Part shown: piece after piece, positions 35,172 to 62,009 of the stretch
Position numbering within the stretch: the stretch's first letter is position 1
Layout: the number at the start of each line of letters is the position of its first letter
Position numbers and translations under genes: made by a program
Source: Hydractinia symbiolongicarpus
Lineage: Eukaryota; Cnidaria; Hydrozoa; Anthoathecata; Hydractiniidae
Length of the DNA: 64,000 bases
NCBI RefSeq assembly: GCF_029227915.1
Contig: NC_079882.1
Location: 28,758,001-28,822,000 of the forward strand
Reading direction: 5' to 3'
Notes under the pieces: generated by a model
What the model was told of the DNA's origin: nothing
The model's input: the letters and a program-made list of their open reading frames with translations, nothing else
The model's database searches: none

Positions 35172-35542
35172 TTAGCGTTTGAAAAGTCGTGTTATGCGAG
35201 AAAATACACCACTAATAATTAATCCAATTCTTCTCATTTTAACCGAGAATGGTACTTTCGGTCTATTCTTTGCATCTTCCTTGTATTCTAAAATCTTTTC
35301 CAACGATACGCCCAGCTCGCTTGGTTTCACAAACTTAAAGTTGACACCATACTTCTTTGACATAGCTGTTCGCATCTTTAGCAACTCTTTTCCGTGTTTG
35401 TAATTAAGCCTTTCGATTTTATCTTCAACTCGTTCGACCAAGTCACGGAATTCTTCGATAGTTTCATTTGCAAATTCTTTCAGGTCTTTGTGGAATTGAA
35501 GCTTGCGTTCTATAAAAGAATTCATAATTCCAGCCTCAAGGC
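35172..35542 (-). CDS. Exon: cytoplasmic tail with coiled-coil
   Basis: About 123 residues. A charged heptad-like stretch (EEFRDLVERVEDKIERLNYK) predicts a coiled coil. The end is basic and hydrophobic (RITRLFKR, stop TAA). The acceptor GTGAAG|GC was chosen because it alone keeps the phase; its pyrimidine tract is poor. No PDZ-binding end. Confidence 0.65.
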
Positions 35543-38500
35543 CTTCACATTTTCTTAGTTTAATTTAAAAAAACTATATTAACGCTAAAGAACAACTCTT
35601 TTAGGGAAATAGGGAAGGGGAAACATGAATCGGTCGTGACGACAAGCAATGTGTGGAAAAAATAATGAATTGCTCTAAAGGATTGAGAAGGTAAACTTCG
35701 ACTCAAAAAGATTTATATACATTAACTTCGGTACAAAAGTCATCATGAATTCAAATAATAGTTCAAAGGCGAAAAAACGTACCTTTGTTGGTGTAAATTT
35801 TACGTTTTAATTTCGCTAACTTGTTTCTTCTGATCGCTTCATAGATCAATCCAATGAATATACACACCAACCACATTATGAGCACTATACGTAGCGTTTT
35901 TTGATATAATGGTGCATTGAAGCTGATGATATCCTGTTCCCCTTCTGTTGCAGTGGTCGTTGTTTCACTTGATGTTTCAGCCGTTCCGTTTGCTTTCTTA
36001 ATTTCAATCGATTTTTTAATTTCCTATGTATAACGAAGTGAAAATTATAATTTACAGGAAAAAAATGTGTGTAAGAATGACGGGAGAGGAAATAGAATGT
36101 TACCTGTAGAAGCTTTGAAATAGCTTTGGAGGTCAGGTCTGTGTTCGCCTTTGCAAATTTTGTCCCACAAACTTTCAATTTTTCCATCTCACCAAATGCA
36201 GCTACGCCAAAATCAGTTGGTTCATCAAAAGCTTTATTAACAGTCAAACCATAATCAGAAATATTGCTTTTTAGAATTTCAGCAACATATCGATCCAGTA
36301 ATGCATATTTCACAGTTTTGTTTTTCAATGGTTCAAAAAGTTCTTCGTATGAGTAGTAAGTAACGTCTAGAAAAGCGGTACAATACAACTCAACTGCATT
36401 TTACATTTGTCTGATATAAAATTTCGCACATAGGTTAACTTGATAAGTGTTCAAATTGTGCAAATTGGAGATAAAAATAAAATAACGTTCTGCTGCATGT
36501 TTTAGCTTATACGAAAATGTTTTCCATAACTTTACAAAAAATAATAATACACATGACTTACTTTTCTCAAATTTCTTAATCCTTTTTTTGCCGTATGTAT
36601 ATTCTGCGCTGCCATACAATGCTAACATCTATTTTTTTTTAAAAAAAACAGAAATGTGAGGATATAAAAAAGAAGTAAAAACAACAACCTAACTACTATG
36701 GTCTGTTTATGAAACCCGCTAATTTATCAGTATAAAGCTGACCACTAGCAATATCTCCATTTACGGGCGAATTTTTTAACCAACCATTTTTTTTCTCTTG
36801 CAAAATACCAAAGATTTTAGGCATGATTCGAGAAGATTCGAATGTTTAAATTGTATTAAAAAATCTCGAAGATGTTGGGACTAGTTCGAGTTACAGAGAG
36901 GTTTATCTAAGGGGCAACAGACTTAGATGCTGAGGTGTAGTTTTCCAGTTTTAGAGCTATACTATAACGTGTTTTTTGTATGGAGATGGGAAGCAGGAAT
37001 TCAAGAAAGCAACAGATATTGGCTGTTAAACTATCCGGGATGCCAAGAGTGTATAAAAGCTACTTTGAGTTCTGAACATGTATAAAAATGCAGAGAAGTA
37101 GTCAAGAATAAAAAAAACATAAATAAAGAATTTAATGTTAGTATTTGAAATATTTGCCATTAGTTCAAGATGGTAAAAAACGAAATTGTAAAACATAAAA
37201 TGTTTGCTTAAAGCAGCTAACCCATAATTTCCAGTTGGTACAATGTTGGTATTTAAAAGCTGCTTATGTTCTATATATTTCGCTAATAAAGATTATACTA
37301 CTTCAATTCAAATTTAAGCAATATATAGCAACAAGATTTGATTTTCTAGCAAAAAGAACATGGTGAATGACCACAAACCTGGTTCAGTTATTTATGCAAC
37401 GACAGAAACACAGTTTTTCAGAACTCATAAAGACATTACCTTATCATCAGGGAGGTTTTGCTTCATTGAATTAATTGAAGCCACTGACAAAGCTGACGAG
37501 AGACTACCAGTAACAATTCCAGTTAACACCAAACCAAGAAGTGTCCAAAACACAATGTATATACGTCCTGATGTAGTCTCAGGTATCTTGTCACCGTATC
37601 TTAATAAAGAGAATTTTACGTATTATTTTATTTCGCTTTTGATTAAGAGGTAAAAAGTAGAGTTTGTTTATATTTGGAAGTAAATAACCCTTTTTAACAA
37701 TCTGGGCTATTTCTAAAAGTCAAAAAATCAAAAAATGTAAAATTTCGTCAAACAAATCATTGCTATTCCCCAGTGAAGTTTATTCCCTATAAAAGTTAGA
37801 AGCACTTTAAAAAATAAAAACATTAACTTCAAAATAACTTTCTCAAAATTATTTGTTAGAAGCTAAAGGAGATACATATAATTTTCGCTATTTTTAAAGA
37901 AAAAATACTACATCTCATTTGCATGGCACACAGACTAAATAAACCTTTTTGACCGGGAGTTGATTTGGCCAATTTAGACAACGTGACAAAAACCTGTTAA
38001 ATTAAAATCACAACAAAATATTTTTTACCATTCCATAATTTTTGAAAATCTTATGAAAATTAGGACTTCATTTGACAACGGGTGATTTTTTCTTTCTCGT
38101 TAAACTTTATTATAACAATAGCGGTTATTTTTTCCTGATTTAGCTTCATAGAAAATAACCAACTTGAAAGACTTTTACGCCAAATTAAATTCAGCTCATT
38201 TCAGCAAATTTTATCAAATTATGCATAGTTTCCACTGATGATAAAGCTTAACAAATGGCCTTTTTGAAAAAGAAACTTCACTTATAACGTTGTTTTTGTT
38301 TGAAATTTTATAATAGAAATTGAATTTTAATTATAATAGTTGTTACCCATGGAAACATCCACAGGTATTATCACACATCAATTTTTCGCTTGTTTTTGCA
38401 GACCTAAGCAAAATATAGCCATACCAACTTTCTCACATTCAGTCCTCATAAAAATCATTTTCAAAAAAGTAAAATAAGGTAGTACCATTGTCTTTTCTAA

Positions 38501-41500
38501 ATTCAGTTCAAAAATGAGGTAGAAGTCATGTTTCAGATTATCGAAATTGTTTACCGAGATAGCCTCTTCAGTAAAGGGGGTTCTAGTGCACGTAAAACTC
38601 CCATTTGAGGTACAAAAGTCGTGCAAGCACAGCAATCGCTCAACTAAACAACTGCCTAAGATATAAATCCCATTCTCATGTTGAACGCTAAGCAGAAAGA
38701 ATAGATTCACACATTTATAGTCTCTGGAATGAATCGGCCGGGGTTTGAACCTTAGACCTCTCACACTGAAAGCGAGCGCTCTACCACAAGGCTACCAGTC
38801 GGTAAAGATAAGTTAAGATAATTTATTTAAATTGAACTAAGAACAAAACGATCCATATTTTTTTTTAACCTCGAAAATGCATTTTTGAAATGTCTTTATC
38901 TCACAAATTCTCACACTGCATGTTTTCCAACTCACATTCGCATGAAAATATCGGTATACCTTCAATGTTCACTATCTCATTAAATAAACGTGAACTTGGT
39001 ATGTCAAGTTCATGTTATTTCATGAAATAATAAGGTGATTTTGAAATAACAGAAATTTAACATATTTTCACTGCGGACTAACATAAAGTAAGAAATTATG
39101 TTTAAAAATTAATTCATGTTATTTTATGTTAGTAAACCACTGGAAACCAAGCTTAAGTGTTTCATGCCCCTTTACTTAAAATTTATGATGCTGTAAGACA
39201 ACACTAACAACAACAAAAACAACAACAAAAACAACAACAAAAACAACAACAAAAACAATAAAAATAACAACAAGAACTGACCCAACAGTGGTGCTTGTCA
39301 TAATAGCCAAATATAAACCTTCAAATATTCCAGCAAGTGACATTCCACGACCTTTGTGTTCGACTTTTGTTGGTTCCTAAAGAATAATGAGTTAAGTTTC
39401 GTTATCGTCTATAAATAATACGATAAGCCGGATTGTATGTGATATTTATGATAGGTGTAAGTGGATTTTCTCATGGGGAAATAGTTGTTGCACAAAAAAT
39501 GATTTTATTATCAAAGCATTTTTGACATTTAAGTTAAGTTTACTTTAATCTAATAAAGGATTTAATCTTTAACCATTTATTTTAAACACTTTAATTCTTA
39601 TAGTAGATTTTTCTCTGGTTCACACAACTCCACATATTTTATTTTATAACTAACCACTCCGTATTTAAATACATTGATTTGGACAATATAAAACAGTATT
39701 CCTTAAGATAATCGTTTACCTCCTTTTTCATGTTTTGGAACTACTTAATTATTTGGTAAAAAAATTAACACTATATGAAACACTTGTTGATGATATAGTT
39801 TATAGCTGGATTTTATAGTGTTAATGTGATTTTTCATACTTTTCCCACTTCCGGTTTAGTAACTTTTCTATAAGTTAAAGGTCACATAGGTCACAGGTCA
39901 CAGGTCAAAATTTTAAAACGTGCCAAATTATGCATATATTCCGATTAGAATGTATGAATATAAACTGCATGTAAACACATTACGCTACTTAACCGCCCCA
40001 ACATCTAAGTCTGTTACCAAACTTAGTCCTTGCTTTCTTTAGAGAATTCGCGCGTTTGGAGTTCTTGCCGTTATTGGTGACTGATAGCATTATCACCGTT
40101 TTTATTTTTATTTTTTGATAGCGACATCGGAAGTGCGCTGAGGACTCAGGTCCTAATAATTAGGCCAACAGAACATTATGCTTTATTATGTTGGTTATTC
40201 TCTATCTACATTACGTTGGTTATGCTCTATCTACATTACGTTGGTTATGCTCTATCTACATTACGTTGGTTATGCTCTATCCACATTACGTTGGTCATGC
40301 TTTACCTACAGGCAAAATATTCTTCTATATGTAGTAATAAAGAGCATTTTACTACAGTTATGCAACATATTATGCCTTATTACTTTGGTTATGGCCTGTC
40401 TTATTGTTAGGGTTAGGTGGAATAATATATTGGTTATGGTCTATCTACAGGAAATATGTTTGCGTTGTGAGGATGTCCAATAATGAGGATTAATGTGTCA
40501 GGTCTATTTGGTTGGGGTAATTCAGTGGACGCGTGTTTTTACCTTGGTAGAGATATCAACCAGTATTACTTTATGGTGTACGTCGTGTGTGTGGGGTACA
40601 GTTGAGCCAGTGTTTTTTAAGTTAAAGATGTGAAAGTGTCCATTCATCCATGTGTATAAAAAATTAACTACACTTACACAAAACCAAAACATTGCTCCGA
40701 AGAACCAATTGAGAATAAAATATAGAGCACATATAGGCAGCGTGGAAAATATCCCATCAAGTAATCCATCTTCAACTTTTGCAGAGGCCTGTGCAGGACT
40801 ATCAGGAACTTCAAGAATGATAAATCCAGGACTGGTTGTAGTAACAACAAGAGAGTAATGGGGTGTAAACTTTCCAGTGTCCAACCTCGGAACTTGCAAT
40901 GCAGTGCCATTTACCGTAAAATTCTTTATATCACTGAACGAGTCCAAATCCACGCGATTGTAAGAGATGTAAACACTTTGATTAAATGAAGTGCAATTGT
41001 GAGCACATGTCAGCAGCATTTGTTCAGTTAAATCCATTACAATACCTTCTGGACGCAAATTGTTACCTTTTGGATAATCAACATAGGGAGGATATACCAT
41101 GTAATTGAGAATCAACTTTGCTTGTGGAACATGGCATGTTTCTAAGTGTGAAAAGTTTAAAATGTGCTGTAAACGTAAAATAAAGTAAAATCAAACCAAA
41201 CAAAATAAAATAAAATGAAATAGTCAGAAGTTTTTTTATTATAACTTGTAACTCACCAAGTCGAACTGGATCGCTTTTAAAACCAACACCTGCATTACTT
41301 CTTGCAGCTACACGAACTCTGTAAACACTATACAATTCTAAACCTTTGAGAACATGAGAAGTTGTTAAAGGGACATCGACTCTGGTAGCTTTTATCAATC
41401 CATCATCAACATCGATTTCACCAGTAGATAGCTTTTCATAGAAGATAGTATATCCTTGTTTAGATCCTTGCCATTGATCATCTGGTATATGTTCCCATTG

Positions 41501-44500
41501 AATTAGGCTTGCATATGGATAGTGGAAACTAGATGCACGTACATTAGAAGGAGCTGCAGTGGGTTCTAAACAAATTTAAAACTTCAGAATAAAAGAAATT
41601 TTGAAAAAGTCCTTGCGCAATAGACGTTTTTACTGATACTACTACTATTTTTGAAATATTCGCAATATAGTGTGGGAAAGTCAAGGTAGTTTCGGAGCAG
41701 GTTAGTTACTTCAAACATTGGTAGGGAATTTTTTTAATGGTGCATTTACAGAACAGTATTGAGAGAGTTTTGATAGTTTAGAACTTAATTTAGGGAGGAG
41801 TTCACTTAAATGTGGTTTAAGTGAAAATAATGCAGGTAGTAAAGTTCTACAATCAAGCCGGCTAGGCTGCATTTATATAAACTAACAGTTGCATTACATC
41901 AAATACCGTTTCTTTGAAAAAATAAGAGAGAAAATTTAATGGAAGTATGCGTGAGATAGCTGTAGCTTAAAATTAAAAACAGCTAACATATCATATGCAC
42001 TATGGTTAGCTCATCATTAGCCCGTTGTCAAAACCAAGCTTGGGGAAATTTCTGTGGATATCTCTAACTAGTATAATACATAACTTGCAAATTTTTTGCC
42101 CCTTGCACTATTTTAAACCTGTTTTAATTTATATATTTTAAAATTTTAAATTTTTCGGCGAATAGCGTTGTAATGTAGAAGTTTTTTAAAAAGAAAATAA
42201 ATAAATAAATAAAATGAGACCTTATTTTTTAACAGGTACTTCTGCCGATAATGAGAACTTAATTTAATACAAATGCCTAGGAAACCCTACTTCGCTCATT
42301 TCTAGAATCTAAAAATAGAAGCATATTGTCATGTTTTACAAGAACGTTCAAGTGACTTTGAAAGCTGCTTGAATGGTTGAAAAGTAAAAAATGATCAAAA
42401 ATAACATTTCTCATACATTTTATGCTTTAAAAAAGCTTCATTGTTGATAATGGTTAAAGAGGTTTTATGTCACTGCAATCAATTGTGACCAAAACAATAG
42501 TTATTGTTTAAATGTGACCACATATATCGATCACTTTTGTTCATAATATGTTCTATAACACATTCGATAATGTGTATTTTAAGTTGGAGAACTCGGAAGA
42601 TTTTTTGGTCCCTCAGGGGTTAGAGGTATCTTGAATATATACTTTTATGTTTTTATATGTAATGCCATTAATTTCATAAAAACTTTAATATTGATTAACA
42701 TGTAGGTGCCTATATCATCATCATTGATCATCTGTTATGTGTTCCCATTCAGTAATGCTTGCGTATGGATCATGAAAAGTTAATACACATTATATTAAAA
42801 ATAAAATAAATATCAGAGTTAACCAAAATGTGTAATAATAAAATAAATCTGATTAAATGTTTCCTTTTTTAAAACGCTTCCTTACCTAATTTTATAGAGT
42901 AAAATTTTATAGTCATGTTGCAAATTCATCAGTCATACTTTAAAATCAGATTCTTACCTGTCTCAAACGTTGAACAGTTTAACTTTTCAGTTGGCTTTCC
43001 TTCCCCCACACTGGTAAAAGCTGTCATCCAAACTGTGTATTGTGTGTTTGCTTTCAAGAAAAATAACTCCATTCTTCTTTTATATGGTTCATCAGTTTCA
43101 TTGACTATTTTATTGCCAAGTTGGTAATAAATCATATATTTTGTTCGAATACCTTCCAAATAAGCAGGAGGAGAGTGTTTCCATTGCAGTAGAAGTGAAC
43201 TGTAACTCACTCCTTCGCAGGTAAAATTGTAAGCAGACATCGATGGTGCTAAAAGTTAACGGTTTATGCACGAGTTTATTACTATATAGCCTTTCATCCT
43301 AGAAATCACCTATTATTGGCAAGGATAAATTACCGAAAAGCATGAAGAATCATTAAACAGCACATCTCCACGACGTATTCAACATATAGAAACCTGACAC
43401 ATTATTTAATACTTACTTCCTTCAGGCGTAAAAATTTGAATAGGTGGACTAGCCAGACCAATAAATTTCGTATCAACAGAAAGACTGACATTATAGAATG
43501 TATAGCCACGCAATCCAGTAGTGTTGAAGCTTACAGTACTAGTACCAGGAACAGTGATGTTGTCCCTATGGGAAAGTTAAAAATAAATTACTAATCAAGT
43601 GAGCGCAACAAAAGTAAAAATATCTCTTTTTTACAAAACTAATACGCGAATAGATTTATTCTCAGGTTCACAGTGCAAATACCTTAAATTAGTAGCAAGC
43701 TATCGAAAAAGTCCACATAAATTCATCCATCACAGCGCGCACGACTAGCTATCACAGGTTAACTAATCTGAAATAACTGACTTGAGAATACAGAAGAAAA
43801 CATACGTGGATGTCAACCAATTTTTACTTATAGTTTTTACTTCTATTGTTTTAAAGGCAAGTATACCTTATGAATTTTTTCATAGTGATTTCATTCCTCT
43901 AACCTAAATGTTTTATTTTTGTTCTATATGTTTTCTGTTAAAGTTCTGAAGCATAGGAGCATAAAAAAACTATGGTGCGGCAAAAATAAGGCACATATTG
44001 GTCATTTTTTAATATATAAACTCTTTGTGTTATATATAGCATATTAAAGTACTTGTGAAAAAAATAAAAAATATCTACATCTCCATCGGCAATCCATCAC
44101 AGTACTGTCCCTCCACACAGAGTGCACTTGATGCATCTCTCCGTTGTCGTGTTGAGTACGTTCCAATTGTCAAATCTTCAGCTCTATATATCGCTTGCAA
44201 CCTCACAGTGTAACCTCTTATAATGCCTGGAATTTTCGTTTCGTCAGGAAGCTCCCATGAAATGCTTATATTATTATACCCTGTAGCCACAGCCTGTAGG
44301 TTTGGGGGAGAAATAATTGACCCTAAAGTAAATACGGTAACGAGTTTAAACAAACTAAAAAAATTGGACATACTAAGGAAATTTTGAGTCTAAAAACAGC
44401 ACAGCACTGTTACTAAGTGCTCCGAAATCTTAATCTGATATGAACATACAGGTCATATTATGGCGCTTGCATCTATCGTAGTTCTCCAGCTACATCATTT

Positions 44501-47500
44501 CCCCCCATATACACTGTAAATATAAACTGTAGTTTTGTAAGCATCTCCATTGACAGCATGAGTGTTGTAAATGACATTGCTTTTAATTTTGGTTAAATCT
44601 TGTTGATTTCTGCCATGTAAGGAGGAATCCTTAATATCACCTGATGATATACAAATAGAGATAGCGCGAAGCCTGGACGCGTAGGGTTGCTAGTCCATTC
44701 ACCCAGTGCCTTAGATATTGCGGTGTTTTGAGAAACCAATGAGAATGCTTTCTTTCATATTTTTAACTAATGGAGATACAGTATTAGCATGATCTTTGCA
44801 TAGTCTGCTACAAACAAAAAGTACTCCTTAAAGTAAGAAGAAAGTCTCTGAGGTGGCTGGTCAAGAATGTTTTTGGCCAAAACGTTCACTTCAGAGCACT
44901 CCACAGTTGAATGTAATGAAGTCCAATCAACAAAGCTTGAAACTATGTGTTGGAAATCGTTTGTGTAGTTGTTAAATCTGAGACATATCTGGTAAGACTT
45001 GGATAGTTAATTTATAATTAAAGCTGTCCTGCTTGTTTATTTTTGGGCATAATTAAGTTGCCACTCCCGTGGCTTTTTATTTATGCAAAGTGTTCATAAT
45101 AGTTTCTCACTGCAAGAGTTTTACCAGCGAAAAAATATTGTGCCAAAAAATTGGTTTTTGGAACAAGGAGGCTCATGACTGTAGTCAGTGCAATTATTAG
45201 TACGAATTGCTCTAAATGCTCCAAGTAAACTACTCTTTGATAAGTTCCTCCAAATGGAGCACTTGGAACATCCAGAGCGGAATCTAATGTTGGACAGCGC
45301 TTTAATGAATAAATATATGCTGAACTTACATGATTCTTCGGTTGTTACAGTAATATTAGAAACCGGTGACACTCCTTTAAAGTTAAAACATGTAACTTCA
45401 ATCCGATAGATAGTAAAAAACTTCAGATCCTTCGCTTCGTAGCTAAATGTTTTTTCGTTACTAAAAAGAGTCATACTGTATTGGTTAAATCAGAAAAAGG
45501 AATATAAATTTGTCTAATTGGTACTTTACAGAAAGATTAATTATTTCTTTGTAAGCTTAACACACACTAACCCTTTTCGTGTTATATTTGTGGTATTTTT
45601 GTCCATTGGATTGTCAACAGATTGGATAGTCAACCTAAAATTCCCAACAACTCCAGCCCATTCTATATCGTATATGTCATTCCATTCAATGTAGATCGAT
45701 GTCGAACTTGTGTTGTAACCCGTGAGATTATAAGGCCCTCTAAATGGTGCTGAAAAATAGAAATTTATAGGTGAGAAAAACTTAAAAAGAACATTAGCGA
45801 TGAGGAGACAACTGTGCATTTATTTAAAGCTCTGCCAATTTTTATTTTAACCCTATTCGGTCGGTTTTTTAATAACTCCTTATTGCTATGTTATATGGTT
45901 ATGAAACTTACTGAGTTTCAATATTTATTTATTAGACACCTGCATGCCAAATTTTTAGGTATGGGACCCTTCAGAAGATTTGATATCAGCCATTACTCGA
46001 AACTACCCCTAGATATCTCTATGAAATCCTTACAATGGGGAAAACTGTTAGGATTATCCTTATAACTTGAAACTTGCAACACAAATTTGTTTTATTAAGA
46101 AGAATCATTTTGCATAATTCGGACACGTGATTAACCCGATTTCCCGTTTTTGTAGGATTTTACCCGAAAATTGGAAAAATTCGTATTTTCGGGCAATTTT
46201 TGCCAATTTTTTATGCGATCTACGTAAAAACCGGAAAATATGACAAATAACTTTTATTTAGCTTTCAGAAACTTCAAACAGAAAGCAAAAATTCGCTCTG
46301 GAACAAAAGTAATTAAATTTTGAGCGGATAGTGACATTTTTAACAAATTTCAAGCTTCTGATGACGTCACAAAAAATGTACTGACGCAAGCAAAAATTTA
46401 TTGCTGCTATTTTGTTCCTTTTATGACGTACTATAAGTGTGCCAAGTTTGATTCAATTTAAACAACCCTATGAAAAGTTATTGAGAGGGGGGGGGGGCGG
46501 ATTCCGGACCGAACAGGGTTAACATTTTGGTTCATATTGATTCTTATTGGAGAAAAGAGGATCAAGCTTAGCTTTTCTATTCTCTGTTTACCTTCTGCAT
46601 CTGTCCAAACAGTGATTGGATCACTAAAAGGTCCAAGGCCAGCAACAGTGTATGCAGCAATAGTAACTAGATATGGTGTATATATTTCCAGCCCTCCAAA
46701 TATGGTAGTTAGTTCATCGTTACTTGAGATGTTTTGCCTTCCCATTTCAACTTCATCCAATGTAATACAAATGGTTAAATATTTAGTGATAATTCCACGC
46801 GTATCTTCTTCAATGGGCTCTGTCCAGTTGACATAAATGCTACGGGAATTATTGTATGCACCAGTAACATTTTGAGGCGGTCCGGTTGGAGCTTGAAAAG
46901 AAGAAATGTTATTGCTAGCTAGGAAACACATTAAAATTTATCAAAATATATTAACTTTTTTCTTACGGGCTTCTCCAGTCTTTATTATTTCAATATCGCT
47001 GTATGCTCCAACACCAATTGTTGTTGCCACTGCAACAGCTACTTCATATTCTCTGTAACCTTCCAAATCATCAATTTCAACTTCATAAGTGCTTGCATTA
47101 ACAATTATGTGGTCAGTAAATTCCGACTTTCCGACACGACGATAGTAAACATGGTATTGGTATGGATAACCAAGCCATTCTCTTACATTTGTTTCTTCGT
47201 TCCATTTAACTTTAAGTGAGTAAGAACCAGTGTCATATCCCCACACATTTTCTTTAAACTTTAGAGGAACTATAAAAAAAAATCAGAAATTAAAGAGGAT
47301 TAAAGTTTCTTAAATAGTCTGAAAGTAATAGAGAAAGTAAATTTAATACTGGATTGATCCGTTAAGATTGTCACAGCTGGTGATTTTGGTCCTGATCCTT
47401 TTTCATTGTAACATTTAATCCTTATATTGTAATGTGTGAATTCTTCCAAATTTGCAATTACAGCAGATGTTATACTTCTGAAACAAAAAGAAAAAAAGTA

Positions 47501-50500
47501 CCAATTAGCAATTACATCGTTATTAGCATCTAGGAAATATATGTTGCGATAATATACCTGTGATAGCTTCTTTTACCACCAGGAATGTCGGGAGGTGAGA
47601 TATGAAGAGTAAATCCATCTGATGCACCATTCCACTGATCAAATGAAATATTATCCCATCGTACAAAAATAGATGTCGAAGACATGTTATATCCCGAAAT
47701 ATGCAAGGGATATCCATCCGGTGCTAAAAATAAAGTGCATATGAGTAAAAAATTGTCTTTTTCTTTACAAACGTATACACTGCATCTCATATGCCCACTA
47801 TCTCGAACTTAAAACACATGCATTGGTAATTTTTCGTACTTTTAGCTAACTCTTACACTTTACTTCAGAAACATTTTCTGGATAACTTTTAGTTCGAGAT
47901 GTAGAGAGAGTGCATTGACAGAAAAGCAGGTTGTAAAAGCAAGTAAAATTATGCATATAATTTATTTTCCTTACGTCCAATACCACTTTGAATTAATGTT
48001 CCGTTACTTTCCGGACCAGCACCTACAGATGTGAATGCAGTGACAGTCACAGCATACCAAGTAAACGCTGTTAAATTGTGTATGTTTGTTGCAAGCTGTG
48101 ATCCATTATTGATTTGGATGATTTGAATAATTTCCGTCAAGTTGCTGGAATAACATGTAACATTATAGCCAATAATTATTCCCTTGCGTAATCTCTCTGG
48201 AACTTTTAGCCAATGAACAACTATGCTTGTTTCATTAATGTCTTCACCTGTTACATTGAGAGGTGGACTCAGTGGGACTATAATGAAAAAAAGGTATATA
48301 TATATATATTAGTTAAAGTTCAACAGCTATATATAGTTAAAGTTTGACTACAGAACCTTTCTTAGTCAAGATTTATAATTTACAGACACTGTGTACAATG
48401 GTGACATTGAATGGAAATACAAAACTTAGTTAAAGAAGTTCATACAATGCTCTCCAGTTATTTCTGTTACAATGCTGCTCCTAGGTCCAATCCCAGCCCT
48501 AGTTGCTGCTGCAACCTGGAAATCATACAGAGTGTAGCTAAACAAATCAACAATATTTGCTTCAGTATTTGGAGCGTCTACTGTCATATTTTGAAATGAC
48601 TGTGTTCCATTTAAACTGTAGAAGACGTAATATAGGTATGGAACACCATTCCATTCTGGTAGTTCAATACTATTCCATTTGATTAAAATGGATGTGTTAC
48701 TTGAATTCGTTGTTGATTGGATAGCAGGAGCTGTTGACGGTTCTACAAAAAATATAAAATGCTTGTCAAGGACGCACAATAATATTAATGCTTTCAGTTT
48801 AATAATCTCGAGCAACCACTAACCTGCTTCTCCTGTTTTGTTTTCAATTTGGTCGTATACATTTGAAAGATAATCATCATTTCTTGCTCGTAATTCAAAT
48901 CTGTAATCACTGAAAGGATATAATCCGCAGACCAAATATTCTTTAACCAATCCTGTTTCAATAAATTCATAATTTGAAGGAGGCCAAAGAGAATACTTAA
49001 GTTCATAACTCCGAAGATAACCCAATACATTCTCTTCTGGAATATGCTCCCATTTTAATTCCATGCAGGATGAATTATAGGGCTCTGCAAATATAAACGA
49101 CGCTGCACCATTTGGGACTAAAAAATCAATGAAAAGATATATATCTATAAATAAAGAAAGATGAAATATTAGTGACCTAATTTAATGTTATTGGTATTAA
49201 CCGTTGAGTCTACCTAAATAGAAGATTCAGGTCGACTTAATAAAAAATAATCAATTGCAACAATAAGCTTCACAATTTTTTAAAAATAATAAACCTATTT
49301 TTGAAGGGAATGAGTAGAGGTAGCTAAGCGCGTTTTGTTTTCTTGTCATGTTTGTTGCCAAGTAAATATAAAAAAATGTATTTTTGCTTGAAAAACATCC
49401 CAAGTTAAGTCAAAAGTGTTTCAAGCCCAAGTGTTTTTGTTCCTAACTTGTTCACTAGAGTTTAAGGTCAAGAAGTTCTAACAAAAATCACTTCCCTCAA
49501 ACTTGCACCTTATAATATTTCCATTCTGTTAGGGAATGTATGGTAAGGGTTAACTTAGAAATTTTTATTCACCTTTTAACACATTTTTGTGGTATACCTT
49601 ACTTAAGTGTCGCTGATGGCGTGATTAATAGAAAAACGAAGGAGACATAGGAATATTTTATTACAATGATTTTATAGCCAGAAGACCTAGCATAATTTTC
49701 TTATTACAAAATTGAAAGAGTTGAGTGAAGAAAAATTACTTGGGGTCGCAAATGAACTTTCTACAGTCGGAATACTGACAGGGCTTGGTTTTTTTTTAAT
49801 GTTCTTTGTTCACGTGATATTTATTGCTAGTTTTTTCTCAAGTTTTGAAAAGAGGATAGCCTCACTCACTCCAAGTAACGTAATTAATTCCTGTATTACT
49901 TAAAAGAGTAAAATTTAGCCATGTTGGCTTTGTATAAATGAAACTCATTTTATCATCCTCAAACAAGCTTAGTTAACTAAGGTAATGATTTAACAACTGG
50001 AGTATAAAGTTTACCATTAGGTGAAATGGCTGGAAATATATTTAAATAAATATTACCTCCTTGTTTAGTTCTTGCAGAGATTTTTGTTGCATTTCCTTCA
50101 ACATTTCCAAGATGGGAATATCCCTCTACGCTCAAAGTATAGTTTGAAAATATATTAAGTCCACCAAAGTTATATTGAGTGCTTCCTCTCGATATATGAT
50201 GGGAAGCAACCAACACATTGTCACTGTCATATGCTCTTACGATAAGAATGAAATTGCCTTGCGAATACAAGCTGCTTAAGTCATAAGAATCCCATCCAAT
50301 GTGAATGTTATATTGACCAGTGCTTAACACTTGTAGATTTTGAGGTTCATCAACTAGAACATTTAGATATGTACTATTGTCTAAGTAAAACACAATACGA
50401 GATACTTGAAATTAATACTCACATGGACATTCTTTCCCGACACATGTGCCATTACTTAGAGGAGGACAAAAACTGTCTTTCCATAAAGGATGGTTGACTT

Positions 50501-50593
50501 CACAGTTGTGTGTATGTACTAATACACCAGTACCACATTGTGAAGAATGACATACACTTGAAGTGGATATGATAAAGTTCTTGCTATTCTGTC
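35172..50593 (-). CDS. TSP1-FN3-glutamate-receptor-like K+ channel, 3' 22 exons
   Basis: Exons (minus): 50593-50423, 50353-50057, 49117-48824, 48742-48446, 48277-47975, 47723-47558, 47477-47350, 47269-46967, 46891-46592, 45749-45572, 45475-45330, 44322-44079, 43565-43417, 43248-42958, 41565-41257, 41141-40678, 39376-39282, 37599-37440, 36628-36562, 36366-36104, 36023-35783, 35542-35172. Every junction is GT/AG and phase-matched; total 5,237 nt, 1,744 residues. Order: TSP1 half, eleven FN3 domains, S1 lobe, M1, pore with TTVGYGDK, M3, S2 lobe, M4, cytoplasmic tail. This is the iGluR topology with a potassium filter, and the module order predicts a plasma-membrane channel with a long adhesive ectodomain. 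No LIVBP-type amino-terminal domain is seen. The canonical S1 ligand arginine is not recognisable, so the ligand is unknown. Upstream exons, including the signal peptide, are not found. The last acceptor (35542) is the weakest. Confidence 0.85.
35783..36023 (-). CDS. Exon: stalk and M4
   Basis: Acidic Thr/Ser-rich stalk (ETSSETTTTATEGE) then TLRIVLIMWLVCIFIGLIYE, a clear membrane helix, followed by basic residues on the cytoplasmic side. M4 is present in eukaryotic iGluRs and absent from prokaryotic GluR0. Confidence 0.8.
36104..36628 (-). CDS. Two exons: ligand-binding lobe S2
   Basis: A 67-nt exon (36628-36562, LALYGSAEYTYGKKRIKKF) joins in phase 1 to 36366-36104. The second starts VTYYSYEELFEPLKN and contains ALLDRYVAEIL, FGVAAFGEM and AISKLLQ. 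The YALLDRYVA and FGVA blocks are those of the second binding-protein lobe in iGluR-like receptors. Confidence 0.78.
37440..37599 (-). CDS. Exon: second half of K+ filter and M3
   Basis: The first base completes glycine, then YGDKIPETTSG and a hydrophobic inner helix (IYIVFWTLLGLVLTGIVTGS). The SYTANLAAF motif of animal iGluR M3 is absent; SLSSALSVAS occupies its place. Donor GATAAG|GTAATG, phase 0. Confidence 0.85.
38380..38803 (-). mobile_element. tRNA-derived SINE in channel-gene intron
   Basis: Minus-strand head with box A TAGCCTTGTGGTAGAGCG (38794-38777) and box B GGTTCAAACCCC (38751-38740). The anticodon stem is intact (CTCGC/GTGAG) with loop TTTCAGT, giving anticodon TCA. A body without tRNA similarity follows to about 38380. 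The acceptor stem does not pair well, so this is a SINE rather than a tRNA gene. Confidence 0.6.
39201..39276. repeat. (AACAAC AAAAAC)n microsatellite
   Basis: CAACAACAAAAA-type simple repeat lying immediately intronic to the filter exon (its donor is at 39281). Confidence 0.85.
39282..39376 (-). CDS. Exon: pore helix and first half of K+ filter
   Basis: Thirty-one codons plus two bases. Encodes a polar linker, then GIFEGLYLAIMTSTTVG, a potassium-channel pore helix entering the filter. It ends after GG of the glycine codon at donor GG|GTCAGT. Acceptor TATTCTTTAG. Confidence 0.82.
40178..40320. repeat. 25-bp tandem repeat in intron
   Basis: Five to six units of ATTACGTTGGTTATGCTCTA plus TCTAC. 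Because 25 is not a multiple of three the apparent frames are meaningless. Located in the intron before the filter exon. Confidence 0.85.
40678..41141 (-). CDS. Exon: ligand-binding lobe S1 and M1
   Basis: Begins TCHVPQAKLILNYMVYPPYV, a periplasmic-binding-type first strand with the PPY turn, then GIVMDLTEQMLLTCAHNC. Ends in a hydrophobic helix (STLPICALYFILNWFFGAMF) that is M1. The donor TGT|GTAAGT is perfect. In animal iGluRs a conserved arginine in this lobe binds the ligand carboxylate; I cannot place an equivalent here. Confidence 0.75.
41257..45749 (-). CDS. FN3 domains 8-11 (six exons)
   Basis: Domains: 8 (45749-45572 plus 45475-45330), 9 (44322-44079 plus 43565-43417), 10 (43248-42958), 11 (41565-41257). 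Domains 8 and 9 are each split by a phase-2 intron at a similar place, like domain 5, which suggests that these three descend from one split ancestor. Domain 9 has an inserted RQRRD stretch and an extra cysteine pair. Domain 11 joins directly to the S1 lobe (..DPVRLE then TCHVPQAK). Confidence 0.82.
42722..42792 (-). pseudogene. Relic of a duplicated FN3 exon
   Basis: TTGATCATCTGTTATGTGTT.. parallels 41473 onward (TTGATCATCTGGTATATGTT..), including CCCATT..GCTTGC.TATGGAT..TGAAA. It matches only the first third of the FN3-11 exon and lacks an open frame or donor. Confidence 0.6.
45851..46518. mobile_element. piggyBac-like MITE in channel-gene intron
   Basis: Flanked by TTAA at 45847-45850 and 46519-46522. 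Ends CCCTATTCGGTCGG and (reverse) CCCTGTTCGGTCCGG form imperfect inverted repeats. TTAA duplication and a CCCT terminus are established for piggyBac. No transposase frame. A poly-G run (46487-46498) lies just inside the right end. It sits between FN3-7 and FN3-8 exons. Confidence 0.75.
46592..50353 (-). CDS. FN3 domains 1-7 (eight exons)
   Basis: Domains: 1 (50353-50057), 2 (49117-48824), 3 (48742-48446), 4 (48277-47975), 5 (47723-47558 plus 47477-47350), 6 (47269-46967), 7 (46891-46592). Each has the FN3 pattern: proline-rich start, a W in strand B (IGW, LKW, IKW, VHW, VRW, VKW, VNW), a Y in strand C, and a late Y-x-V/F core. Most domain boundaries are phase-1 introns, the symmetric class expected from exon shuffling. 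Domain 5 is split by a phase-2 intron. Numerous N-x-S/T sites fit an extracellular location. Confidence 0.85.
50423..50593 (-). CDS. Exon: C-terminal part of TSP1 repeat
   Basis: Six cysteines in the pattern C-x4-C-GTG-..-C-..-C-..-C-x4-C (VCHSSQCGTG.., ending VGKECP) match the thrombospondin type-1 repeat after its Trp-containing first strand. That strand would be in the missing upstream exon. Phase 1 at both ends. Confidence 0.7.
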
Positions 50594-51660: not shown

Positions 51661-53330
51661 CTAAGTCAATTTAGGGGATAGCTAAAACATTTTTATTTGT
51701 TAAGTTCAAAAATTACACCAACTTAATTTTACCAAAATGAGTTAAAATTCCGCGGCAGTATTTTAATAAATCCAGTAATTGCGACAGCAGTTATTTGTTG
51801 TTGTTCAAAATGCTGAATTGCAAGAGTTGGAATGGACATTAATGTTTTATGCATACTTCAGAAAGCTCTTATCATAGAAGTGTGCAGCATTTGGGAACCA
51901 AACAGACTAGGGTCAAGGTTGGCATACAAACTTGGAACTGGTTACCCCTTACGACAAAACACGCAGCGTTGATGCTTGTGCTACATATTGGAAAATTTTA
52001 TGAGAAAAGACACATGCAGTTAATTTTTATACTGTATCCTGGGATGCATTGAAGCATTTTTCTTCAAAATGCTTTTCTATTGATTTTTTTTAATCTGCAA
52101 TATATCAGCTACGTTTTTATCGCTGAGCAAATTGTCTCCAGGATAGCAATTTCATGTCTCTCACTTCACTATTAGCTCTACCAACAGCTAGCTAGATGTA
52201 CTTTGGAATATCCAACAACAACATCCGAGTTACGTAAAAATACGATACCAAACTATTCCAAAAAGAATGTAAACAAACGTATATCAATCCAGTTTGCGTG
52301 AAAATAGATTAACAAGATTCACCAAATTTACACAAATCCTCTTTATTGGAGGCAAAAAAAGTCAATTTGTTTTGAAGTCTAAGCTATTCTTATCTGCATG
52401 TTCGTCCTGGACCGTTCTGCCGTACAGTTTGCATTTTACATCAGTTGCTTGCACCAGAAAAATACTCCGGAGAAACTCTTACCCAGCCAGATGAGCAGCT
52501 TACACCACCAAAACTGGTGCAAATAGTGAAGCCGACACAGACACGAAAAATCAAATATTTTGCAGGACAAAAAAGTAACATTTGTATTGTCTGACAAGAA
52601 CAAGACCATCAAACCCGGACGCGGGAGTGGGGACTCTGAAAACCAGTTTTATACGTCAAGCGCAAAATAAAAAAACACCAGGCTCGCAGAGACACACCTA
52701 ACTATTTGGAGACAAATTTTTGCTATTGTATTTATGCCATGACACTAAAGCTAAATCCGATCCACACTTTAGGCAAAAACTTCTAGAAAAGAGGTTAAAG
52801 AAGATACAGACTTATTTCTATCATACTAATTTAAGTTATCATACACAGCCCAGTCTTATTGCTCACATGTGAAGATAATATGTTAAATATTTTTTTTAAA
52901 CAAAAATCATTCGTGTAGGTATCAAAGGCATATTAACTGGTTTTGGCTATGATAGACATCAATTCTAGTGCACGAGAGACATCTTACGTAAATCTTACAT
53001 AATAGGATCACGTTTCACACAAAAATACTGGAGCTAGTTTGAATTTATTAACAAAGAAGAAGTTTAAAGCGGTGGTCAAGGTGGTAAGAAAAACACATAT
53101 TCAAAAGCAGTATCTTGGATTACATGAATTTTTAACAAAAAGTAGATACGTCATTGGGAATTTCTCATTAAAATTTTCAGGTCTAGTCCAACGTTAAAAA
53201 GTACCTCGGAATTCCTTTAATTAATGAAAAATTGATAAACTGCCCTTTAAAAAAGGGTAACTATGGATTAATTTGCAATCTACTGGCAATCATTCTATTA
53301 GTATTATAATACCGTAGGTTACTGTTAATT
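51660..53330. other. No recognised feature
   Basis: I looked here on the minus strand for a TSP1 Trp-containing exon or a signal-peptide exon of the channel gene and found none that I can defend. Confidence 0.45.
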
Positions 53331-53334
53331 CTGT

Positions 53335-54468
53335 TTGAACAAAAACTTCCAAAAAGTTATTTTTCAGTCATTTGACACTGTTGATCATACTATCCTTTTA
53401 AAAAAACTTGAAAATTATGGAATTAGAGGACTATCTAACTCCTGGTTCAGATCATACCTTAGTAACAGAAAACAATATGTTTCAATAAATGGTTTTGATT
53501 CAAATGTCCAAAATATAACAATAGGAGTACCCCAAGGGTCTGTACTTGGACCTTTACTATTTCTAATTTATATTAATGATCTAAACAATGCAATTAAATA
53601 CTCAACAGTCCACCATTTTGCAGATGATACTAACTTACTGACAATTAGTGATAATTTAAAATCAATAAGGAAGCAATTAAACCTTGATCTAAGATTCCTT
53701 TGCAACTGGCTCCGGGCCAACAAAATATCCCTAAATGCTAGTAAAACAGAAATCATCCTCTTTACCCATCCAAACAAATCTATTGACTATGATATCAAAA
53801 TAAAAATCAATGGCCATAAAATTTTACCTTCTGAATCTATTAAATATTTAGGGATCACTCTGGACAAACATTTAAAATGGCATATACACATAGATAATCT
53901 TAAAGTAAAACTATCCAGATCCATTGGGATATTATCTAAAATAAGACACTATGTTTCCTATAATATTTTAACTAATATATATCATGCTATCTTCTCATCA
54001 CATCTAACTTATGGATGTCAAATATGGGGACATAACAAAAGCACCTACCTGAATAGAATTATCTCCCTTCAAAATAAAGCAATTAAAATTATGAACTTCA
54101 AACCTGCAAACAGCCCTACTTCTCTATTATTTAATAAATCCAAAATACTTACTTTTCCTGACACAATTAAGCTGAAAGACTTTTTATTTGCGTATGATCA
54201 TTATCATAAAAATTTGCCTAAATCTCTGCAAGGCATTTTCACTCTGGTTACAAATACTCATACCCATAATACTAGAAATGCATCAAACAATAACCTAATA
54301 CTTCCAAATGTTAGTACCACTTGGTATGGAATTTATAGTATAAAATATCAATCAATCCGTTGCTGGAATACAATTAATAACCAACACAGTGATAAAAAGC
54401 TGTCATCACTATCCAAAAACCAGTGCAAAAAAATAATTACAAATCAATTGTTAAGTAAATACTTATAA
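53335..54468 (+). pseudogene. LINE reverse transcriptase, 5'-truncated
   Basis: A single open frame of about 377 codons covers the RT from FDTVDHTILLKKL through GVPQGSVLGPLLFLIYINDL, the catalytic HFADDTN box, the thumb (KYLGITLDKHLKW) and the C-terminal tail (THTHNTRNAS). The endonuclease and the N-terminal fingers are absent, as expected of 5' truncation during target-primed reverse transcription. The block style fits the Jockey/CR1 group. The frame is intact, so insertion is recent. A T-rich 3' UTR-like stretch runs to about 54850. Confidence 0.75.
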
Positions 54469-56423: not shown

Positions 56424-56629
56424 TTGAGTGAAAGGTTTGGCTTGAGGATTCAGAACGTATTTTGTAGTTTGACGTTGTACTCCAATCTGCTTAACAGCTG
56501 GATCACCCATTGTGTTGTAGGTGAACTTTGGTGGTGGTCTGATTTCTCGCTGACTGACGGAATCCTGATCGTCATTTTTAGGTCACCTCTATATCTGTTC
56601 TCATCCTCGTGTATGTCTTCTCCAGAAGA

Positions 56630-56812
56630 TGTTGCCGCATCCTCTTCCATGGAAGATGTTGACGCATCCTCTTCCATGGAAGATGTTGACGCATCCTCTT
56701 CCATGGAAGATGTTGACGCATCCTCTTCCATGGAAGATGTTGACGCATTCTCTTCCATGGAAGATGTTGACGCATCCTCTTCCATGGAAGATGTTGACAC
56801 ATCCTTTTCCCC
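56630..56812. repeat. 27-bp coding minisatellite (SSMEEDAST)
   Basis: About six to seven units of TCTTCCATGGAAGATGTTGA plus CGCATCC. In the retroelement frame (minus) it encodes an acidic nine-residue repeat, STSSMEEDA. Since 27 is a multiple of three, all six frames are open. It sits at the very C-terminus of the polyprotein. Confidence 0.85.
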
Positions 56813-56827: not shown

Positions 56828-57343
56828 TTAACCTGCTGAAGTTTCTGCAATGTCCAACTGTACTTTCTGATCTTTGTCACATTCCTCAATCTTGTTTGGA
56901 GGTTTTTGAACTGTGAAATCAACATGTTCAGTCCGTGTATAATTGGAAAGCTGTTGGAAATCTGCAGGGCCGAGTGCGTCATCATCCGAGTTGTTTGGGG
57001 ACTCGTTAATCTCATTTTGGTCGTATGTCGATACAGAACTGTTTAACTTCATTCCTCGACGTTTACTTTGAGTCGTAACTGCAGACGGCTTTGCAGCAGA
57101 GAGCTCAGGTTTCAATGTGTTCCCTTTGACCCTAGCTACTGGTGTGTCTTCCTGTAGTATCAGATTCCGGCATGGCATAAGAAGGTTGCGATTTACCGTT
57201 CTCTGTCGGCTTGATGGGTCGTCTTCTTTTTGGACAGTGTATACTACTCCCCCTTGCTTAATATCTTTGATTGTGTAAACCTTTTGTTCCCAATACGCTC
57301 TTATTTTTCCAGGTCCACCACGTTCCACTACGTTCTTGATCAA
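56828..57343 (-). pseudogene. Integrase C-terminal module
   Basis: IKNVVERGGPGKIRAYWEQK and VYTIKDIKQGGVVYTVQKED form the barrel-like module that follows gypsy-type integrase cores. After it comes a Lys/Ser/Asp-rich tail ending at TAA (56827), beyond which the same frame opens into the Ser/Glu repeat. Confidence 0.65.
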
Positions 57344-57861
57344 AACTCTATCTTCAATTTCAAGTTGTCCAGATTGATGCTGTCGACCCTGTCTGTTTCT
57401 CGCGGCAGCTTTTCTTTTCTCGGTGCTTGCTCTTCAGGCTTGTGTGCCACTTCGATCTCAACTTCACCAAGTGTTCTCAGCATCTGTAACAGCGTCCTGT
57501 TCATCCTCTTCACAAGACCGTTAGTTTGTGGGTGGTAAGGAGTGGTTCGACTTTTTTGTACACCAGATAGGCGATGTAGTTCAGTGAACAACTGACTTTC
57601 GAATTCTCGTCCTTGGTCATGCAGTAGTCTTGATGGTAATCCAAATCGTAGAATGTATTCTCCATATAAGTGCTTTGCTGCTGTTGCAGCACTCTTATTA
57701 CGTGTTGGATATGCTTGGGCATATCGTGTAAAGTGATCCATGATGACCAGGATGTATTCGTATCCACCGCTACTGGTTTCCAAATGGAGATAATCCATCG
57801 CAATCAGTTCCATAGGTGATGATGAGATAATATTTTGTAGTGGCGCAGGCGGTTCCCTCAT
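57340..57861 (-). pseudogene. Integrase core with altered catalytic residue
   Basis: [20 protein letters not shown] and [13 protein letters not shown] hold the first two catalytic Asp. The third block, [20 protein letters not shown], has Lys where the family has the catalytic Glu, so the domain should be inactive. The downstream part is shortened after ML. Confidence 0.75.
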
Positions 57862-58871
57862 TGGTTTCTTTTGGGAAATACACGGTCACTTGTGTCTGGT
57901 AAATTCGCAGATACTTTATACATTCCAGACCAGTAAACTCTTTGTCTTGCTAACTCGAGTCTTGCTAACTCGATCAGCACCAAGGTGGCCATGTCGACAT
58001 GTAGGTGTTGGTACACAAGAGGCTTTAAAATCTTCGGAAGAACTGTCTGGGTAATGTCGCCAGTTTTCCGCCTTAGTCGACCTTTGTCGTCAAGAAAATA
58101 TTTCCGACGGTCCCGCAACATGATACGAACAGCGGGTGATAATTTATCCTTAGGCACATCAGAGCTATTCTTCAGAACATTTATCATCACCGAGATATCA
58201 GGGTCTTTTTGTTGAAGCTCGACCATTTTAGCAGATGGGATCTTATCTTCTTCGCCATACATCAACGGTTCATAGGAAGATAGGTTAACAGCACCTAATC
58301 CTACCCTCCATGCTTCGTTGTTACTGCTTTGCACCTTTACTCCGGCCATTTTTGCTCTGAAGGCATCTTGTGAAAGTTGTTCCGTACAATCAGCAACGTA
58401 TCTCTCAATACCCAAGGGCAACCGCGAAAGGCAATCAGCATCGCGATTAATAATACCAGGTCTATACCGCACACTAAAGTTGAACTCTGAAAGTTCGGAT
58501 ACCCATCTTTGTCCATTAGCGTTCAACTTGCTTGATTCCAGCACGTACAGCAGTGGATTATTATCAGTAAACACGGTGAAATGATCTGCATAGGCTAAAT
58601 ACTCGCGGAATTTCTCCGTGACTGCCCACTTCAGGCCCAAAAATTCTAACTTACTACTGTGATACTTGGTTTCAGCCGGTAATAGGGTTCTGCTGCCGTA
58701 ACCTATTACGCACGTCTTGTCATGTTGTTTCTGATAGAGAATGCAACCAAGTCGCAGTCCACTAGCATCTACGTGTAGGAAAAACTCATCATCATAATTA
58801 GGATATGCCAAAATTGGTGGTTGTGTCACAATGTCAATCAAGGCATTCAAGGCAGCCTGGTGAATAACCAT
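57858..58871 (-). pseudogene. RNase H and integrase zinc-binding region
   Basis: RNase H blocks FFLHVDASGLRLGCILYQKQ, KLEFLGLKWAV, FTDNNPLLYVL and RYRPGIINRDADCLSRLP are all present. The integrase N-terminal H2C2 follows (YQHLHVDMAT..RQRVYWSGM), but the two cysteines are lost where the frame runs into [14 protein letters not shown]. Confidence 0.75.
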
Positions 58872-59150
58872 CCTTGTTCACAATTCTTCCTAAGTATTTC
58901 ATTTCATTCTTGAACATGTCACATTTCCTTGGGTTCAATTTGATACCTTTTGCTTTCAGTCGTTGTAACACATTTCTAATGTGCTCAATGTGCTGGTCAA
59001 AACCTCGAGAGTAAACGATAACATCATCTAGATAAGGAAGGGCATATCGCGAATGTCCTCAAACGTCTGTACCATGTACCTTTGAAATCCTGCAGGCGCA
59101 TTCATCAATCCAAAGGGTATCCTCACCCACTCAAACAATCCCCACGGCGT
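58870..59150 (-). pseudogene. RT catalytic segment, frameshifted
   Basis: Blocks [20 protein letters not shown] and then, in another frame, [20 protein letters not shown] and KYLGRIVNKDGYS. The YLDD box is intact (about 59035-59020), but a frame change lies just upstream. The segment joining this to RNase H is missing. Confidence 0.72.
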
Positions 59151-60500
59151 CACAAACGCTGTTTTCTTCTTGCTTTCTTTGTCAGGTATCCTTGGTAGTA
59201 GGCACGTGTCTGGTCAAGTACTGAGAACCATTGGCTTCCACCAAGGTTATCCAAGGATGTTTGGATTCGTGGTAATGGGTGTTTGTCTGCAATTGTTTTC
59301 TTATTCAGTATCCTGAAGTCGCAACATAATTGTATGGTTCCATCTTTTTTTCTTATTATCACTACAGGTGATGACCAGGCAGATTTCAATTTTTCAATCC
59401 ATCCACGATTCAGTAAATCTTGTAAATGTTGTTTCACATCGTTGTACAAGGGACGTGGTACTGAAATGTAGTTTCTCTGCACGGGAACTTCATCTGTTGT
59501 TCGGATGTCTATCTTAAGGCCTGTAGCACTTCCTATATCGTTTTCATCTTTTGTAAATGCATGTCTTTGTTCCCACAGCATATTCTCCGCTATTTTGCGT
59601 TGGCTGTCTGACAAGGACTCCAGATCAATTCTTTTTAACTGTTGATGATATTTTCGATCGTTTTCCTGAATACTGGCATCGATTTCAACTGATTCGACCC
59701 TGGTGGTTAAGGCTGGATCACTCTCTAAATTCCTAATATGGCTATCTTTTGTATCTAAATCCTGCTCTTCTTTTGCGAACTCTTTGAACTTTACTGGTGC
59801 TGGAGTCATTGATGTAACTGGTTGTAAGGTTCCAAGTAACATTCTTCCAGGAATTTTTACATCAGTGTTTGATATGTTAGTGATAGTGATGGAGGTTCTG
59901 ACCCTTGTTCGTTTCTTAAGTGATAAGATCTGCTCTTTCAACAGCAAAACACCTTCAAAGGGATGATTAGTTATTGGTTCAAACACTACCGGAGTTGTCT
60001 TTTCCATGACCACTGTTTCCAGTTTGCACGGTATTGTCATGGTTTCGCCCGGTTTGATCAGTGCACCAGGCTTCATCGATTTCACAGTACTGATCGGAGG
60101 ATCTTCCTCCTTCGTTAGAATGTATGAACTCGGTGCGTCAAGTTGTGTTTTTTTCAGGTCTGGAAATGTTTCACTTGGCAAAGTAAAATCTACTGCCTGG
60201 TTCTCCTGATTCAATACTGCCGCAATCACGTTATATCCCACAATTGGTTGAACAATATCTTCATTTGTTACAAGGAATGGTACTTGTAGCACAGAACTAT
60301 TCTTTATCTGAAAATCTAATAGCACATAACCCAGGTATGGGATTTTCGTACCATTAGCTGTCTCTACTGTCAATTCTTCACCCAATAATTCAGATATATA
60401 CTTCCAAGATGATAGTCTTTCACTTGTCTGTCCAACCACTGCTTACTAAGCAGACTAACCATATCTCCAGTATCCCAAAGGGAGTCACATTCTGTTGACT
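59150..60500 (-). pseudogene. Aspartic protease and first half of RT
   Basis: The protease active site reads SLWDTGDMVSLL (about 60470-60440), after which the frame changes. The long frame 60439-59150 then carries the rest of the protease (PFLVTNEDIVQPIVGYNVI), a linker, and RT entry blocks ([52 protein letters not shown]). It stops at 59150 in the middle of the RT. Confidence 0.72.
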
Positions 60501-60745: not shown

Positions 60746-60754
60746 TTCTGGAGA

Positions 60755-62004: not shown

Positions 62005-62009
62005 GTCCT

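Follow-up and report, generated by a model that had tools for sequence, protein, structure and literature searches.

K+-filter glutamate-receptor channels are already known, among them GluR0 of Synechocystis and AvGluR1 of the rotifer Adineta vaga, the latter reportedly the receptor of Janovjak 2011. In the passages of PMC12332018 and PMC11479355 that concern them, GluR0 is a bacterial K+-selective glutamate receptor and AvGluR1 a eukaryotic receptor with a K+ signature; such receptors are presented there as the supposed link of K+ channels to neuronal ionotropic glutamate receptors (iGluRs), and the rotifer is the only animal example named. As of 2010, the K+-filter group was known only from bacteria, according to part of PMC2950845. 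Here we describe a gene of the colonial hydroid Hydractinia symbiolongicarpus (Cnidaria), LOC130654183, on the minus strand of a 64,000-nucleotide stretch of DNA (NC_079882.1, positions 28,758,001 to 28,822,000; hereafter the window, numbered from its first base), which joins a chain of FN3 domains to a channel with a K+ filter and a glutamate-receptor-like segment order. From the sequence and from models we favour, with a probability of roughly 0.55, a hyperpolarising receptor, ligand-gated and selective for K+, with eleven FN3 domains (and one FN3-like domain) in place of the usual amino-terminal domain. The combination of a channel of the probable K+-filter glutamate-receptor kind with an FN3 stalk appears to be new.

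Like the GluR0-type bacterial channels (Synechocystis GluR0; 'Group 1' of PMC2950845), the protein has the order S1-M1-P-M2-S2 and a TVGYG filter, and the inner-helix motif at a spacing equal to that of the five P rows of this type; an Arg and an Asp also align, though with an uncertain register for the Arg. This comparison was made with bacterial rows other than Synechocystis GluR0 itself. Whereas these rows stop after S2 and lack an ectodomain chain, the Hydractinia protein adds an ectodomain of ~1,460 residues, a predicted third membrane helix and a cytoplasmic tail that is conserved. AvGluR1, compared by description only, is likewise an animal receptor that combines the transmembrane plan of eukaryotic iGluRs with a K+ signature filter, but the passages of PMC12332018 and PMC11479355 give it the ordinary architecture of a eukaryotic iGluR, without mention of an FN3 chain. 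The animal iGluRs (AMPA, kainate, NMDA, delta, epsilon and lambda) resemble the protein in the segment order predicted for it and, according to a model built with bacterial rows, in the fold of the ligand-binding and transmembrane domains; they have a Q/R/N-site pore and a LIVBP-like amino-terminal domain, in contrast with its K+ filter and FN3 chain. FN3-chain adhesion receptors of the DSCAM and contactin types share the signal-peptide-like start and the tandem FN3 domains, but the Hydractinia protein ends in a K+-filter channel.

Among 5.8 billion proteins, word-based searches found the FN3-channel layout in two named Hydractinia proteins, P0013 (the product of LOC130654183) and P0014, and in P0015, and in none outside the Hydractinia type among the 7,999 candidates scored, up to a cap, for the channel region or the 7,186 scored from S2 to the tail; these searches need shared 5-residue words and can therefore miss distant relatives. 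A distant relative, P0010 (494 residues), has the K+ filter and a similar last membrane segment with no Pfam fn3 match, so this kind of K+-filter channel may have a wider distribution. No paper on such a protein was found by title or abstract start, and the word 'fibronectin' is absent from the main text of two animal iGluR phylogenies (PMC12226733, PMC6307864).

Gene model, junction and ectodomain

An earlier note on this DNA had proposed 22 minus-strand exons in a single frame of 5,237 nt. The exon set holds: from 50593 to 35172 all internal boundaries are AG/GT, and one open frame runs to the stop at 35174-35172. The length does not. The exon 11 acceptor of the annotated gene (45460) lies 15 bases further on than that of the first model (45475); the corrected model has 5,189 nt and 1,728 residues, identical to residues 300-2027 of P0013 (NCBI, Hydractinia symbiolongicarpus, uncharacterized protein, 2,027 residues). 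This match is far beyond chance, and the gene is real. Position 50593 is the edge of an internal exon, and P0013 has 299 additional N-terminal residues. When P0013 residues 1-320 were searched against the window by tblastn, only residues 299-320 were placed, at 50594-50529, the other listed matches having E-values of at least 3.4. The exons that encode these 299 residues are not in the window and should lie upstream, beyond position 64000 and >13 kb away. The features of the window part, all on the minus strand, are as follows.

50423-50593 (-): exon 1 of the window part, an internal exon; Cys-rich segment, six Cys with TSP1-like spacing only; phase 1-1
50057-50353 (-): exon 2, FN3-1; phase 1-1; Pfam and exon model
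48824-49117 (-): exon 3, FN3-2; phase 1-1; Pfam and exon model
48446-48742 (-): exon 4, FN3-3; phase 1-1; Pfam and exon model
47975-48277 (-): exon 5, FN3-4; phase 1-1; Pfam and exon model
47350-47723 (-): exons 6 (47723-47558) and 7 (47477-47350), FN3-5
46967-47269 (-): exon 8, FN3-6; phase 1-1
46592-46891 (-): exon 9, FN3-7; phase 1-1
45330-45749 (-): exons 10 (45749-45572) and 11 (45460-45330, annotated acceptor), FN3-8
43417-44322 (-): exons 12 (44322-44079) and 13 (43565-43417), FN3-9
42958-43248 (-): exon 14, FN3-10; phase 1-1; 93% identity to P0015
41257-41565 (-): exon 15, FN3-11; phase 1-1; 90% identity to P0015
40678-41141 (-): exon 16, putative ligand-binding domain (S1 half) and M1 (M1 about 40749-40678)
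40885-40887 (-): AGG codon, Arg in PR[LM]DTGK[FY]T (P0013 R1571); aligns with the Arg of GluR0-type rows
39282-39376 (-): exon 17, pore helix and start of the filter (TV plus bases 1 and 2 of the first Gly codon, 39289-39282)
37440-37599 (-): exon 18, rest of the filter (base 3 of the first Gly codon followed by YGD, 37599-37590) and M2 inner helix with TGSLSSALS
36562-36628 (-): exon 19, start of S2
36104-36366 (-): exon 20, S2
36293-36295 (-): GAT codon, Asp in ALLDRYVAE (P0013 D1772); aligns with the Asp of GluR0-type rows
35783-36023 (-): exon 21, end of S2, linker, M3 (about 35888-35832), then basic residues
35172-35509 (-): exon 22, cytoplasmic tail and stop (TAA, 35174-35172)

Each FN3 domain is flanked by phase-1 introns, with one further internal phase-2 intron in FN3-5, -8 and -9, and phase-1-bounded FN3 exons are the usual cassette for exon shuffling. 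The junction of FN3 chain and channel, after exon 15, is likewise a phase-1 intron, while the selectivity filter is split by the exon 17/18 intron within its first Gly codon.

The intron before exon 15 contains a decayed copy of part of that exon (42724-42780, minus strand, 57 bases, 82% identity, E=1e-12), which is the remnant of an exon duplication, and the exon 16/17 intron contains a 25-base tandem repeat in five copies at 40185-40310.

The earlier note held that the fusion would be overturned by complementary DNAs that end between FN3-11 and S1 and so reveal two separate genes. The models of P0013, P0014 (LOC130654910, 1,733 residues) and P0015 (2,036 residues) all span this junction, linking FN3-11 to S1 at identical residues. 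P0015 is an open reading frame (ORF) of 2,036 codons within a 6,303-base contig, too short to hold the introns, which places FN3 chain and channel on one transcript; we take the contig to be a transcript contig, its source tag 'lgn' presumably denoting an assembly of public reads. As P0015 is closer to P0014 (80-99% by segment) than to P0013 (69% over 2,035 columns), it supports the fusion in a close relative, not at this very locus, where the join is that of the gene model. The paralogue P0001 (LOC130653900, 513 residues) tells against the fusion: its annotation has no ectodomain and starts within S1, at a Met for which exon 16 has an in-frame counterpart. It is either a truncated model or a short form, and it starts without a signal-peptide-like stretch and without the first S1 residues. 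P0001, P0013 and P0014 are presumably on the same contig, 33,075,650 bases being listed as the longest for each. That two adjacent genes were wrongly fused by the gene model is very improbable, and we reject it on the join shared by the three long models, on the intronless P0015 contig and on the incomplete start of P0001; the covalent connection proposed in the note, of an FN3-chain ectodomain to a channel with glutamate-receptor-like segment order, stands.

The ectodomain comprises about 1,460 residues, with a signal-peptide-like start, an FN3-like domain, a ~165-residue domain without a match, the Cys-rich segment and eleven FN3 domains. The FN3 count agrees with the note: Pfam fn3 matches the window part in 11 tandem stretches (E=2.8e-88), with 11 stretches in P0013, 8 in P0014 and 11 in P0015, and the Pfam DSCAM-type FN3 profile also matches the window part. 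P0014 is without FN3-3 to FN3-5, which its near twin P0015 keeps; the stalk may differ in length through loss of exons or through splicing, or the gene model may be in error. The N-terminus of P0013, outside the window and so missing from the order of domains that the note gave, begins with a hydrophobic signal-peptide-like stretch. Residues 19-108 may be one further FN3 domain by sequence, their best PDB match being contactin-5 (E=0.09); the N-terminal 299 residues have no Pfam match, and residues 131-298 match nothing in Pfam. PF28033, listed by the database for these proteins, was not reported by our Pfam scans. No LIVBP-like amino-terminal domain was matched by Pfam (E<=1) in P0013, P0014 or P0015, as the note had it for the region in front of the channel. 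In the first window model, 39 N-glycosylation sequons fall within residues 1-1,330, as would be expected of an ectodomain.

The TSP1 domain that the note placed ahead of the FN3 chain is not supported. The Cys-rich segment has six cysteines in TSP1-like order, conserved in three sequences; Pfam gave no TSP1 match at E<=10 (window segment, P0013 residues 1-359, P0014 segment), and there is no TSP1 among the 8 PDB sequences matched by a three-row profile of the segment. We do not adopt the label, as the spacing has neither Pfam nor PDB profile support.

Pore and putative ligand-binding domain

The pore reads TSTTVGYGD in all four Hydractinia-type sequences and thus contains a K+-channel filter (TVGYGD, of the TxVGYG form), which the earlier note did not mention. 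Hydropathy of the first window model gives three hydrophobic segments (1317-1346, 1391-1409 and 1587-1605) in addition to the pore loop; the third follows S2, precedes a basic tail and is aligned in the paralogues, in the manner of a eukaryotic iGluR M4. The segment order S1-M1-P-M2-S2 is co-linear with the GluR0-type rows, the sidedness being presumed. The inner helix carries a motif of the SYTANLAAFLTV kind, TGSLSSALS or TGSLSSAMS, whose distance from the filter (+32) equals that in the five GluR0-type P rows. The motif is found in 35 of the 39 rows of alignment A5 (which includes 29 of 80 loci, with L058 left out for a stop codon) and in none of 13 filters from seven other proteins used as controls. 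In ligand domains of this family an Arg in S1 and an acidic residue in S2 hold the amino acid ligand, and an Arg and an Asp are aligned with the GluR0-type residues in all four sequences, the register of the Arg coming from MAFFT only, in a low-confidence stretch.

These observations bear on whether the channel is instead an ordinary two-transmembrane K+ channel pore with unrelated flanks and no kinship with glutamate receptors. The best Pfam channel match is Ion_trans_2 (E=4.6e-12 on the window model), and the PDB matches listed (the best 60 of 261 and of 270) are to cation-channel pores only. Against such a pore, the two best non-Hydractinia matches are GluR0-type K+-filter glutamate-receptor channels, at 59 and 56 bits versus 52 for the best K+ channel; the inner-helix motif is absent from every control filter; a third hydrophobic segment follows S2; a pore tree (leaving out one of the 13 control filters, the first of P0012, as too short) gives moderate support to GluR0-type placement over an ordinary K+ channel; and a fold search with the modelled ligand-binding and transmembrane domains, built with bacterial rows, returned resemblance to the animal iGluR fold. 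We regard an ordinary K+ channel pore as improbable.

A number of results weigh against kinship with glutamate receptors. Pfam Lig_chan (PF00060) stays below its curated cut-off, with 20.0 bits versus 30.8 for the window model (E=6.5e-4) and 16.4-17.4 bits in P0013-P0015 (overall E range 6.5e-4 to 0.008). After the Hydractinia-type proteins, the next matches in the range of 953-3,032 residues are P0016 and P0017, which have cyclic-nucleotide-binding domains. Searched against the PDB, a three-row Hydractinia-type profile found only cation-channel pores and no animal iGluR among the best 60 of 270 matches, and a single sequence likewise only such pores among the best 60 of 261. In profile comparison, S1 alone scored above all 100 column shuffles (19.1 versus a best shuffle of 17.5) with a probability of 3.4%, and since its match, of 36 columns, does not extend to the Arg, the register of that residue comes from MAFFT alone; S2 alone (15.6, shuffles up to 20.6) did not rise above shuffles. 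By phmmer, the best score of S1 exceeded 60/60 shuffles and its summed score was reached by 4/60, while for S2 the corresponding scores were reached by 8/60 and 5/60. Arg R1571 falls in a stretch, 52-91 of P0001, modelled at a predicted local distance difference test score (pLDDT) <50, and P0010 has His, not Arg, at the S1 position. TM-scores by query length are 0.14-0.19. Structure prediction, a check suggested in the note, yielded the iGluR-like fold with bacterial rows, and AlphaFold2 without them reached a pLDDT of 37, so the fold evidence depends on the alignment with those rows.

The note's iGluR-type channel is thus borne out by segment order, inner-helix motif and fold model, and not by sequence alone, for which S1 and S2 by themselves are hardly detectable. 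Our glutamate-receptor reading draws on topology, the inner-helix motif, the aligned Arg and Asp and the fold model with bacterial rows, which together make a two-lobed S1/S2 ligand domain probable.

Conservation and proposed mechanism

Identity between P0013 and P0015 rises along the ectodomain, from 43% in the N-terminal FN3-like domain, 30% in the ~165-residue domain, 46% in the Cys-rich segment and 43% in FN3-1, through 63% in FN3-2 and 75-81% in FN3-3 to FN3-9, to 93% in FN3-10 and 90% in FN3-11. In the channel it is 85% in S1, 94% in M1-P-M2, 75% in S2, 60% in M3 and 57% in the tail. No part of the protein is more conserved than the pore (94% identity to P0015, 76% to P0001); the constraint on the two FN3 domains next to the membrane is similar, and the membrane-distal tip diverges fastest. 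Such a sequence gradient would be expected if a conserved engine carried a recognition tip; gene conversion among paralogues could also produce it. The lower identity in S2, M3 and tail is not predicted by the gating idea alone.

The conservation of the pore favours conduction and so counts against a non-conducting adhesion receptor or organiser that has merely retained a channel fold. The large ectodomain would suit such a protein, and there is a precedent in GluD1, which an abstract describes as a synaptic organiser without classical channel activity, yet for the Hydractinia protein we judge this decidedly improbable.

In the receptor that we favour, four subunits of the K+-filter glutamate-receptor kind (as in bacterial GluR0 and rotifer AvGluR1) would assemble, each with three transmembrane helices and a re-entrant pore loop that would dip into the membrane from its cytoplasmic face. 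The S1 and S2 clamshell would close on an amino acid or similar small ligand, and K+ efflux would hyperpolarise and inhibit the cell; with a pore of the K+-filter type, activation would hyperpolarise rather than depolarise. At 3.5 nm per module, a stalk of roughly 12 FN3-type modules would reach some 40 nm when extended, and it could position the channel at cell or matrix contacts. Its fast-diverging tip might bind a partner that anchors the channel or biases the gate, and FN3-10 and FN3-11 may couple contact to gating.

The main rival takes contact further. Here the ligand domain would be degenerate and no longer bind, and binding to or pulling on the FN3 chain would open the K+ pore. An S1/S2 region hardly recognisable by sequence is in keeping with this, as are the diverging distal end and the near-pore conservation of FN3-10 and FN3-11, which would be expected of gating transmitters. 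The residues aligned with the binding-cleft Arg and Asp are, however, kept in four of four sequences, and the gradient could stem from gene conversion; we consider a contact- or force-gated channel possible but doubtful. Gating by contact, which the earlier note already suggested and which is still an inference, also underlies a more far-reaching and still unlikely proposal: in the Hydractinia lineage, an inhibitory receptor channel with a K+-selective glutamate-receptor-type pore would have its gate set by what the diversifying FN3 tip meets on a neighbouring cell or matrix, with several paralogues bearing different tips on one conserved engine.

An FN3 chain on a K+-filter glutamate-receptor-like channel suggests a cell-surface receptor that would quiet the cell on meeting a ligand or partner. 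If it conducts K+, an amino acid or cell contact would inhibit, not excite; were contact gating true, this would be direct 'touch this surface, go silent' signalling. The cnidarian example suggests that the K+-filter kind is also present in an early-branching animal group and was refitted there, the regulatory amino-terminal domain being swapped for an adhesion array across a phase-1 intron. Hydractinia is open to gene editing. It has also long been used in allorecognition research, as the abstract of PMC12464821 sets out.

Other features of the window

Upstream of the gene, ORFs at 53329-54468 (plus strand), 57340-62007 (minus strand) and 62868-63371 (plus strand) resemble retroelement remains (reverse transcriptase, gag/pol-like), judged by eye from the ORF list. 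A 27-base tandem array of 6.9 copies at 56625-56810 is open on both strands, with repeats of nine residues (DASSSMEDV, for example). At 3450-3662 and 4753-5025, similar longer ORFs each contain a copy of a 30/60-base minisatellite. Finally, an ORF at 19362-19622 (plus strand), with MSVIATVLLCMLTSLGSVHT... and HLCGVNFVKAWHTVCRW, resembles the B chain of an insulin/relaxin-like peptide (Pfam Insulin E=0.078, below cut-off).

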